This document shows, in pieces, positions 17,723 to 20,476 of a stretch of DNA of 35,535 nt (position 1 is its first letter; each line of letters begins with the position of its first letter). Under the pieces are notes generated by a model. The model saw only the letters and a list, made by a program, of their open reading frames with translations, searched no databases and had not been told where the DNA came from. Source of the DNA: Thermodesulfobacteriota bacterium (lineage in GTDB: Bacteria > Desulfobacterota > WTBG01 > CAIYCZ01 > CAIRTM01). The DNA lies in contig JANQGV010000151.1 of NCBI GenBank assembly GCA_028282925.1, forward strand, positions 1-35,535, read 5' to 3'. A program made the position numbers and the translations under genes.

Positions 17723-20476
17723 TTAAAACATGCGTCCCATGGAGAATTCGAAGTTGCTGCTGTCTTCATCATCCTTGGGCGACAGGTTGACACCCCAGAC
17801 GATCCTGAGGGGGCCGAAGGGTGAATACCAGTTGACCCCGACGCCGACACAATGGCGCATGTCGGACAGGAATTGTTCTCCGGAAGCATAGGCGTTTCCG
17901 GTATCGAAAAAGAGCACACCCCGAACTCCGGCTTCCTTCATGATGGGAAACAGGTATTCGAAGTTGAAATAGAGCTGTTTCTTGCCGCCGACCACATCTT
18001 TTTTGCTGCTGTATCCCGGAGGATGGTAAGTGTATTTTTTGCCACCAAGCCAGAATTGACGGGGCCGGTGCGGCCTGCGTTCCCGGGGACCGACGGAACG
18101 GACGTCGAATCCCCGCATGGAGTCAAGCCCGCCCAGAAAGAATTTTTCTGAGATAGGCACGCCTTTGCCGAAATAGGGGAAAATCTGGCCGATGGTACCG
18201 CGCACCGCAAAGGCGGTATCCAGGGGCAGCGGGAACCACTTGCCCATACTGGCAATAACGGTAATAAACTTGCTGTCGCCGCCGAAACCGGCCAGCTCCA
18301 CGGAGAAACTGTTACGTACACCGCTACGCGGCTTCCAGCGGTCGTCGCGGGAGTCCTTGATAATGCTGGCGATAAAACTGCTGACGGTATTATTGCCCTG
18401 CTGCTTTTGAATGTCAAGGGCAACGCCTTCGTCCCAGTCCTCAATTTCAATATCAATGGTTTCATACCGGTAGGTCAGGTAGAAACGGGTGAAGTCGTAG
18501 TATTTGTCCAGGGGCCAGCTGGCGCGCAGGTTGATACCGCTGGAGTCGCGGTCGAACTCTTCGTATTCGCGTTCGATGTTGAAAAGGTCGAACCCGACCG
18601 AGGTGCGGGTGTCCCGAAACCACGGCTCGGTAAACGAAATGTTGTAATAGTTGGAATGGCCGCCGAGTTGGGCCATGAGGCTCAAGTGCTGCCCCTTACC
18701 GAAGAGATTGTTCTGGGATATCTGGAACATACCCACCACGCTGTCGACGGAACTGTATCCGGCACCGATGCTGAACGAGCCGGTGGGCCGTTCCTTGACC
18801 TCGATGGTCAGTTTCACCAGGTTGGGCTTGCTGCCCGGCTCGGAGTTGATGTTGACCTTTTCAAAAAAGCCCAGGTTGTTGATTTCCTGCTTGCTGCGCT
18901 TGATTTCTTCGGAGTTGTAGACGGCGCCTTCGGTCAGGCGAATCTCGCGCCGGATAACGTTGTCGCGGGTTCTGGTGTTGCCGATGATCCTGATTTCTTC
19001 GATGTAGATCATTTCACCCTTAACAATATCGAAAATAAGATTGACTTTTTTCTGCTCGGACTGAATGTCGGTCAGGGGTGAAACGTCGGCAAAAGCGAAA
19101 CCCTTTTCGGCATACATGGCCTTGATGGCGATCAGGTCGTCGTTGAGGATGCGGCCGTTGAAGGTTTCCCCCGAAGCGGATTTGATTTTGTTTTTAAGAA
19201 CCCCGGTGTCGAAAATGAGATCGCCCTTGAAATCGACGGCGCCGATGGTGAACCGGTTGCCTTCCGTAAGGGTGAAGTGCACATAAATGCCGTCGTTTTT
19301 GAAGGTAACCTTGGGTTTGTCGACTTTTACCTGCAGAAAGCCTTTACTGTAGTAGTAGGCCGTGATGCGCTCAAGATCTTTTTCAACGCCCTCGTCTTTG
19401 TAGACGCCGCGGGTGGTGAACAGGGAGAGTATCCAGTGTTTTTCGCGGGTTTCCATGACCCGTTTGATCTCCTTGGCGGGTATGGAGTTGTTGCCGGAAA
19501 AGGTAACCCCTTTCACCTTGACGACGGTACCCTCTTTGATAATAAAATCGATGGAGGTGTAGTTTTCGGAAATGGGGGTGATGCGATGGGATACGGAAAC
19601 TTTGTAGTAGCCTTTCTCCTTATAGGTTTTCCGAATGCGGGCGATATCTCCGTTGACCTTGTTCAAATCGAGTATCGTGCGGGGCTTGACCTCCATGGTT
19701 TTGCGGATATCTTCCAGCTTTACGTTTTTGTTGCCTTTGATCTGGACTGAGCGCACCATGGGTTTTTCTTTAACATGAAACGTGATTTCTTTACCGCTGT
19801 CCGTGTCCTTGCTGGTGATCTGGATGTCTTTAAAGTATCCCATCTGGAAAATTCGCCTGAGGTCTTCCTGGAGAACCGTGGGTGAGAAGACTTCACCTAC
19901 CTTGGTTTGAATGGCGAACAGAACGGCATCTTCCTCAATAAACCGGTTTCCCGAAACGCCGACCGAGGCCACCATTATTTTATCGAGGATGGCAAAGTTG
20001 AGGCGCAGGGCAAGGTCGCGCAGTTTGGCGGGGATGGTTTCAACGCCTTCAGCCGTGAGATAGAGGCGTTTGGCGTCGACGTCCGTTTCAGACAGATTTA
20101 TAACCGTCGTGTCAAGGCTGTATGATTTGCCGAGTTTGGTGAGGCTTCCGGCAATGATGAAATCGGCCCCCAGCCGTTCACCGATGAGGCGGGCCTGTTC
20201 TTCGTTGTACCGGTCCCAGGTGATTTCCTGCAGCACCTGCTGCATCGTGGTTTTTTGTATGGTGTTGATTTCGCCCTTTTTTTCAAGACGGGTTGCAAGC
20301 ATGTCGGGGATGGCCTTTTGCAGGTATCCGATGTTTTCCTGGCTGTGAATAAAAAACGGGAGAATGCCGACCGTTACGCCCTCGGGGGCAGCAGAGACCC
20401 TGCCCGCAAAGAGAACCGCGCATATGATACTGAATGTCAATACAAAGACCGATTTTTTTTGATACCGTTTGAGCAT
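17723..20476 (-). CDS. bamA: Outer-membrane assembly factor BamA with an extra N-terminal periplasmic domain
   Basis: BamA is the Omp85 channel that inserts beta-barrel proteins into the outer membrane. This 917-residue protein is about 100 residues longer than E. coli BamA. Order: signal peptide (1-29), an additional alpha/beta domain (about 33-165), five POTRA domains (about 168-550, beginning at VASVGVSGNRFIEED) and a 16-strand barrel. The barrel has MRGF at 787-790 in place of the usual VRGF, followed by the insertion-loop region. It ends in ...FSMGRMF, with the C-terminal Phe signal. The extra domain (GVTVGILPFFIHSQENIGYL, then RLGADFIIAGSLTKLG) resembles the TolB-N/CsgG/FlgO-type fold, which in other proteins occurs in periplasmic or lipoprotein subunits. 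It lies between lolD and skp, a conserved arrangement. Confidence 0.94.
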   Translation of the reverse strand: MLKRYQKKSVFVLTFSIICAVLFAGRVSAAPEGVTVGILPFFIHSQENIGYLQKAIPDMLATRLEKKGEINTIQKTTMQQVLQEITWDRYNEEQARLIGERLGADFIIAGSLTKLGKSYSLDTTVINLSETDVDAKRLYLTAEGVETIPAKLRDLALRLNFAILDKIMVASVGVSGNRFIEEDAVLFAIQTKVGEVFSPTVLQEDLRRIFQMGYFKDIQITSKDTDSGKEITFHVKEKPMVRSVQIKGNKNVKLEDIRKTMEVKPRTILDLNKVNGDIARIRKTYKEKGYYKVSVSHRITPISENYTSIDFIIKEGTVVKVKGVTFSGNNSIPAKEIKRVMETREKHWILSLFTTRGVYKDEGVEKDLERITAYYYSKGFLQVKVDKPKVTFKNDGIYVHFTLTEGNRFTIGAVDFKGDLIFDTGVLKNKIKSASGETFNGRILNDDLIAIKAMYAEKGFAFADVSPLTDIQSEQKKVNLIFDIVKGEMIYIEEIRIIGNTRTRDNVIRREIRLTEGAVYNSEEIKRSKQEINNLGFFEKVNINSEPGSKPNLVKLTIEVKERPTGSFSIGAGYSSVDSVVGMFQISQNNLFGKGQHLSLMAQLGGHSNYYNISFTEPWFRDTRTSVGFDLFNIEREYEEFDRDSSGINLRASWPLDKYYDFTRFYLTYRYETIDIEIEDWDEGVALDIQKQQGNNTVSSFIASIIKDSRDDRWKPRSGVRNSFSVELAGFGGDSKFITVIASMGKWFPLPLDTAFAVRGTIGQIFPYFGKGVPISEKFFLGGLDSMRGFDVRSVGPRERRPHRPRQFWLGGKKYTYHPPGYSSKKDVVGGKKQLYFNFEYLFPIMKEAGVRGVLFFDTGNAYASGEQFLSDMRHCVGVGVNWYSPFGPLRIVWGVNLSPKDDEDSSNFEFSMGRMF

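Follow-up and report, generated by a model that had tools for sequence, protein, structure and literature searches.

A TolB-N-like Domain ahead of POTRA 1 in BamA of Thermodesulfobacteriota, with Relatives on LptA and a Propeller Protein, as a Possible Periplasmic Docking Module

Introduction

BamA is generally described as beginning with POTRA 1 directly after its signal peptide. The bamA gene examined here departs from that description. It lies in a window of 35,535 nucleotides, by which we mean the whole stretch of DNA that was analyzed (contig JANQGV010000151.1 of assembly GCA_028282925.1, a Thermodesulfobacteriota bacterium), and a sequence-only reading of that window had claimed that a non-POTRA segment, TolB-N/CsgG/FlgO-like in fold, is inserted between the signal peptide and the first POTRA of the encoded protein. 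Replacement of a BAM lipoprotein, docking to peptidoglycan or Pal/TolB, and a ring had been offered there as possible roles. The locus therefore raises the question of what this segment is, how widely it is found, and what it might do at the end of the POTRA arm. The question bears on a complex that is incompletely described in this part of the bacterial tree. The portion of PMC3359395 available to us reports a delta-proteobacterial BAM without evidence of BamB, BamC or BamE, for which other proteins may substitute; that complex is thought to hold BamA, BamD and possibly further parts, and its biochemistry is said to promise new knowledge.

Results

The bamA reading frame, a minus-strand ORF at positions 17723–20476, encodes 917 amino acids from an ATG at 20476, with an AGGA seen by eye 7 bases 5′ of the start codon. 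The BamA model TIGR03303 matches residues 169–917 with an E value of 3.6e-199 and 663.7 bits, against a curated cut-off of 297.15, and the gene is the sole Omp85-family match in its own genome (5.6 Mb, 324 contigs). All parts of the protein are encoded on the minus strand. By eye, a signal peptide covers about residues 1–30 (20387–20476), with a hydrophobic core followed by V-S-A; because the cleavage site has no lipobox Cys, again by eye, BamA is not a lipoprotein. The extra domain spans about residues 32–166 (19979–20383), as delimited by an AlphaFold model, structural matches and profile matches. A Pfam search with the whole BamA gives five POTRA stretches at about residues 168–563 (18788–19975), which start a few residues past the last helix of the extra domain, and the Omp85 β-barrel at residues 590–917 (17726–18709). 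The segment ahead of POTRA 1 is real, as had been proposed, and both motifs quoted for it, VGILPFF and RLGADFIIAGSLTKLG, are found in the translation.

The same reading had drawn attention to an MRGF motif in the barrel. The motif is present, but it is not distinctive: in a regular-expression count over 54 relatives, the residue preceding RGF/Y is mostly L, V, I or M, with M in 5, and we rejected MRGF as a notable change because M is simply one of several residues used at that position. Elsewhere in the window, positions 355–1806 hold a transposase-like ORF (by eye) at the edge of the contig that bears the lipid A/BamA/Lol cluster.

Among the 60 PDB matches listed for the BamA query, every chain aligns from query residue 164 or later, so that residues 31–163 have no sequence counterpart in solved BamA. 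Searched alone against Pfam, the extra domain resembles FlgT_M (4.5e-4), LpoB (1.3e-3) and CsgG (1.4e-3), with scores below the curated gathering cut-offs in each case (20.9 against 31.2 bits, 19.1 against 22.3 and 18.4 against 20.8, respectively). PF04052 (TolB_N) is not matched by it at E values up to 10, and is matched at 0.01 or better by two of the 28 members of A3, the domain alignment that includes the window's sequence and served as input for both the AlphaFold model and the profile. The domain profile run against PDB sequences returned only four weak matches, to designed TIM barrels, which were taken as chance.

The structural data are clearer. The AlphaFold model of the extra domain has a mean pLDDT of 91.7 and a pTM of 0.86, and its secondary-structure elements follow the order E-E-H-E-H-H-E-E-E-H. 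Foldseek finds 39 matches in the PDB at an E value of 0.001 or better, headed by TolB (3iax_A, 6.6e-8) and followed by LpoB, CT253, FlgT, PelC, GNA1162 and CsgG; a family missing from these lists is not thereby excluded. VIA-align places TolB 2hqs_B on 124 of the 139 model residues (model residues 3–136) with a Z score of 13.8 and an rmsd of 2.5, whereas the best row other than TolB has a Z of 11.1. The proposed TolB-N/CsgG/FlgO-like fold is therefore borne out, with the TolB N-terminal domain as the best match. The proposal would have failed had the segment turned out to be an additional POTRA, bringing their number to six, or a disordered linker. The confident model and its element order speak against this, as do the lack of any POTRA family match to residues 32–166 alone in Pfam and of any POTRA among the 39 Foldseek matches, and we regard that explanation as effectively dismissed.

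A second AlphaFold model, which includes POTRA 1 and 2, has a pLDDT of 88.3 and a pTM of 0.66, so that the relative placement of the domains is not certain. In this model the last helix of the extra domain runs from 116 to 134 and the first POTRA 1 strand starts at 139, leaving a gap of four residues; across 34 BamAs the link between the two domains measures 3–20 residues. On this modeling the extra domain is predicted to sit at the periplasmic tip of the POTRA arm, in near-rigid attachment to POTRA 1. Of all parts of BamA it is the least conserved, with a mean identity of 0.39 compared to 0.47–0.64.

The spread of the domain was determined in a sample of 58 genomes, consisting of the window's own genome and relatives up to phylum level, in 54 of which the BamA N-terminus is readable. 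The TolB-N-like domain is present on BamA in 35 of the 54. The profile was built from 28 clear copies, which match it by construction, and adds seven weaker ones with i-E values from 2.7e-27 to 9.1e-7. This frequency, together with the confident fold, argues that the domain is no chance extension of an ORF. The general statement that BamA begins with POTRA 1 thus describes E. coli and fails in this phylum: most of the BamAs sampled here carry the extra domain. In most of the 19 domain-free BamAs only a short stretch separates the signal peptide from POTRA 1, and other or unreadable upstream frames are found in a few; the BamAs of G044 and G048 carry short divergent segments before POTRA 1. The distribution of the domain requires six changes on the BamA tree. 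Within the window's class it occurs somewhere in all 17 genomes sampled, and on BamA in all 16 with a readable BamA. A contig scan with two peptide patterns gave 32 loci, all from MAGs, whose titles name deltaproteobacterial, Thermodesulfobacteriota (Desulfobacterales and Syntrophaceae included), "Proteobacteria" and "uncultured bacterium" sources. One genome, G044, also encodes a 408-residue protein (L207:5073–6296) that joins a TolB-N-like head to a Pro/Tyr/Gln-rich tail and has no Pfam domain.

In the window's own genome the A3 profile finds three proteins: BamA (4.9e-48, G000:C190:19985–20383), a propeller protein (9.5e-29) and LptA (3.8e-19). The next matches fall to 3.6e-12 and 1.9e-8 and are generic CsgG-like proteins; these two (L065:6112–8112 and L064:5365–7065) are larger, envelope-type proteins with distant CsgG-like domains. 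The headed propeller protein is secreted, roughly 490–670 residues long, and consists of the TolB-N-like domain, a linker and an FG-GAP propeller. Its copy in the window's genome matches PF13517 at 4.9e-16 in a frame truncated by the contig end. FG-GAP relatives lacking the head were not encountered in a set that was gathered by domain matches, so that this result is partly built in, and inspection of ten loci by eye shows no shared neighborhood for the gene. A different CsgG/TolB_N-like protein with FG-GAP-looking repeats (by eye) is encoded in G035 (L203:5074–6798). With 25.5 bits, its head scores above the TolB_N cut-off of 22.4, and the pairing of such a head with FG-GAP repeats may therefore have arisen more than once.

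The headed LptA of the window's genome is encoded in a row of lptC, lptA, lptB and rpoN (LptC, the LptA domains and an ABC ATPase by Pfam, RpoN by eye). No second LptA was found in this genome, where the sole other PF03968 match is a 780-residue frame that is probably LptD. Head and LptA share one frame in 15 of the 16 genomes of the class that have an LptA match, separated by linkers of 77–226 residues with net charges of −2 to −48. The sixteenth, G010 (L124:658–1911), has a single in-frame stop between head and LptA, which reflects either a genuine split or an error in the sequence; in G012 (L132:973–2547), the headed LptA ends in a tail that looks NTF2-like by eye. None of 16 LptA frames from outside the window's class is headed. 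Being confined to one class, the headed LptA cannot explain the BamA domain elsewhere.

In a domain tree of 88 rows and 137 columns, the copies from the three carriers stand apart from seven CsgG/TolB outgroup rows (98/91); those of LptA fall into a single clade (100/95), and the tree does not resolve the BamA and propeller copies. As far as this tree allows, 137 columns being a weak basis, the heads of BamA, LptA and the propeller protein appear to share ancestry. This result has to be set against the idea that a generic TolB-N/CsgG/LpoB-fold adaptor was reused independently, for peptidoglycan synthases, Pal or TolA, on carriers that are not coupled to each other. The fold is indeed frequent in envelope proteins, as the matches to TolB, LpoB, FlgT, PelC, CsgG and GNA1162 illustrate, and TolB_N matches occur in 53 of the 58 genomes, in the window's own genome as a separate gene. 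The grouping of the three carriers against the phylum's CsgG-like and TolB domains, drawn from the tree just described, speaks against such independent reuse, which we consider rather unlikely. Alternatively, the domain could self-assemble at the POTRA face, where it would form rings or clusters in the manner of PelC, CsgG and FlgT. It has its fold in common with these proteins (Z scores of 10.6, 9.3 and 10.8, respectively), but the linkers differ sharply between the carriers, and the best match, TolB, is not known to form rings. Self-assembly at the POTRA face thus seems improbable.

Co-occurrence of the BamA domain with the headed propeller was counted in the 54 genomes: 24 have both, 11 only the BamA domain, 2 only the propeller, and 17 neither, with the propeller of G002 counted from a truncated, unread frame. 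The 11 domain-bearing BamAs (of 35) for which no headed propeller was found include some from incomplete genomes; G026 and G039 have a headed propeller and a domain-free BamA. The pairing is therefore not obligatory. With relatedness controlled, the co-occurrence has a median p of 0.5 in a test that is underpowered, with four starred pairs. For the BamA and LptA heads, the distance correlation over 9 taxa gives a partial r of 0.17 (p 0.19), and it lends no support to co-evolution because an unrelated control pair scores higher, at 0.73.

It had also been suggested to look for separate BAM partners. BamB (TIGR03300) is over the cut-off in none of the 58 genomes, whereas BamD (TIGR03302) is over it in 57, which agrees with the delta-proteobacterial BAM of PMC3359395; the BamD of the window's own genome (G000:C27) matches TIGR03302 at 4.1e-58, over the cut-off, and YfiO at 3.4e-40. 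These counts invite the explanation that the domain replaces a missing BAM lipoprotein as a BamB- or BamE-like scaffold that steers substrates or steadies the POTRA arm, with no link to Lpt. Such a stand-in would agree with a domain that is borne by BamA itself and held nearly rigid, and with the headless LptA frames outside the window's class, where BamA often bears the domain. A genome without BamB need not have the extra domain, however, since BamB over the cut-off is also missing where BamA is domain-free, and a lipoprotein substitute leaves unexplained why LptA carries the same head. We therefore find this explanation unlikely as well.

In some relatives, BamD and LptA/OstA matches fall within one frame. 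Among 148 genomes sampled across the phylum, 141 have BamD at an E value of 1e-40 or better, 33 of them in frames of at least 400 residues. All 33 long frames were read: an OstA domain follows BamD in 26 of them and is absent from 7 (G142 confirmed), and none was present in the 14 shorter BamDs that were read. Pfam confirmed YfiO plus LptD_N in the first seven fusions. The fusions of the BamD lipoprotein to a C-terminal LptA/OstA domain, from 26 genomes of the phylum (L210–L216, L226–L228, L230, L231, L233–L236, L238–L240, L243–L245 and L270–L273), often have a long, Pro- or charge-rich linker between the two parts. One such protein, that of G036 (L212:720–3338), ends in an NTF2-like tail (Cds6_C, 6.2e-20).

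Among the 23 genomes with a fusion and a readable BamA N-terminus, the TolB-N domain is present on BamA in 2, both of family f25, and absent from 21. These 21 form one clade (SH-aLRT 100) and thus count as about one event, which permits no statistics. The phylogeny-controlled test of the pairing between BamD-OstA and the BamA domain is underpowered, with three starred pairs, and the raw Fisher p of 3e-6 over 76 genomes (counted after G098, with a truncated BamA, was dropped) is not usable, as a long BamD was the reason for selecting 22 of these genomes and the fused rows come mostly from one clade.

Discussion

From the architecture, fold and spread established above, we infer a docking role for the extra domain of BamA. 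In the reading that we prefer, to which we give a probability of roughly 0.4, it is a module through which BAM is connected to further machines of the periplasm, the Lpt bridge perhaps among them, by binding between BamA, the propeller protein and the LptA head, while BamD-OstA may act likewise. The BamA head, the TolB-like plan of the propeller protein, the tethered LptA head and the BamD-OstA fusions together suggest such a tie. In a phylum without a recognizable BamB, the TolB-N-like domain would serve as a protein–protein docking module, and the tip of the POTRA arm lends itself to contacts with partners in the periplasm. BamA might bind the propeller protein there and, in the window's class, the LptA head on its tether, whether at a single docking surface or by way of a shared partner. 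Outer-membrane protein assembly, insertion of LptD included, would in this way be kept beside the LPS bridge. In the sister clade that lacks the BamA domain, a similar task may be performed covalently by the fusion of BamD with an LptA/OstA domain. Against this reading stand the restriction of the headed LptA to one class, the non-obligatory pairing with the propeller, the absence of a shared neighborhood around the propeller gene, the low conservation of the BamA domain, and the two controlled tests, neither of which lent support.

A more far-reaching form of this proposal is that outer-membrane protein assembly is physically linked to LPS export in a Bam–Lpt supercomplex, in which the homologous TolB-N heads of BamA and LptA contact one another or meet on a common TolB-like propeller hub and the covalent BamD-LptA-like fusion makes the connection in the sister clade. 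We consider this doubtful. The two pathways are usually treated as separate machines, and the findings raise the possibility that they are joined across the whole phylum. The BamA domain, the LptA and propeller homologues and the BamD-LptA fusions are testable candidates for the possible further parts of the delta-proteobacterial BAM.

E. coli-type BamA has the same five POTRAs and barrel as the protein described here but, judging from the PDB matches listed, no domain before POTRA 1. Non-POTRA additions at the N-terminus of Omp85 proteins are known. In the part of Heinz and Lithgow 2014 (PMC4104836) at hand, WD40-Omp85 is an Omp85 protein with such an N-terminal domain and is read as resembling a BamA-BamB fusion. 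Its extra domain is a propeller, whereas that of the present BamA is of the TolB-N type and Pfam finds no propeller family in the chain. The text of that paper does not mention CsgG or Geobacter, and a 2026 BAM review (PMC13067283) has no mention of Deltaproteobacteria, Desulfo, TolB, an additional domain or an N-terminal extension. A TolB-N-type domain on BamA and LptA appears to be undescribed in the literature searched, outside which most subscription papers lie.

LpoB, CsgG, the FlgT middle domain, PelC and GNA1162 show the same fold with weaker structural similarity, and the first three also a weak Pfam resemblance. These five comprise lipoproteins, ring formers and components of the flagellum. 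The closest known counterpart is the N-terminal domain of TolB (PF04052; PDB 2hqs, 1crz and 3iax), which matches nearly the whole extra domain. In the proteins described here the domain precedes the POTRAs, an FG-GAP propeller or an LptA domain, and TolB itself is a separate gene; the headed propeller protein nevertheless repeats the plan of TolB, a domain of this type followed by a β-propeller.
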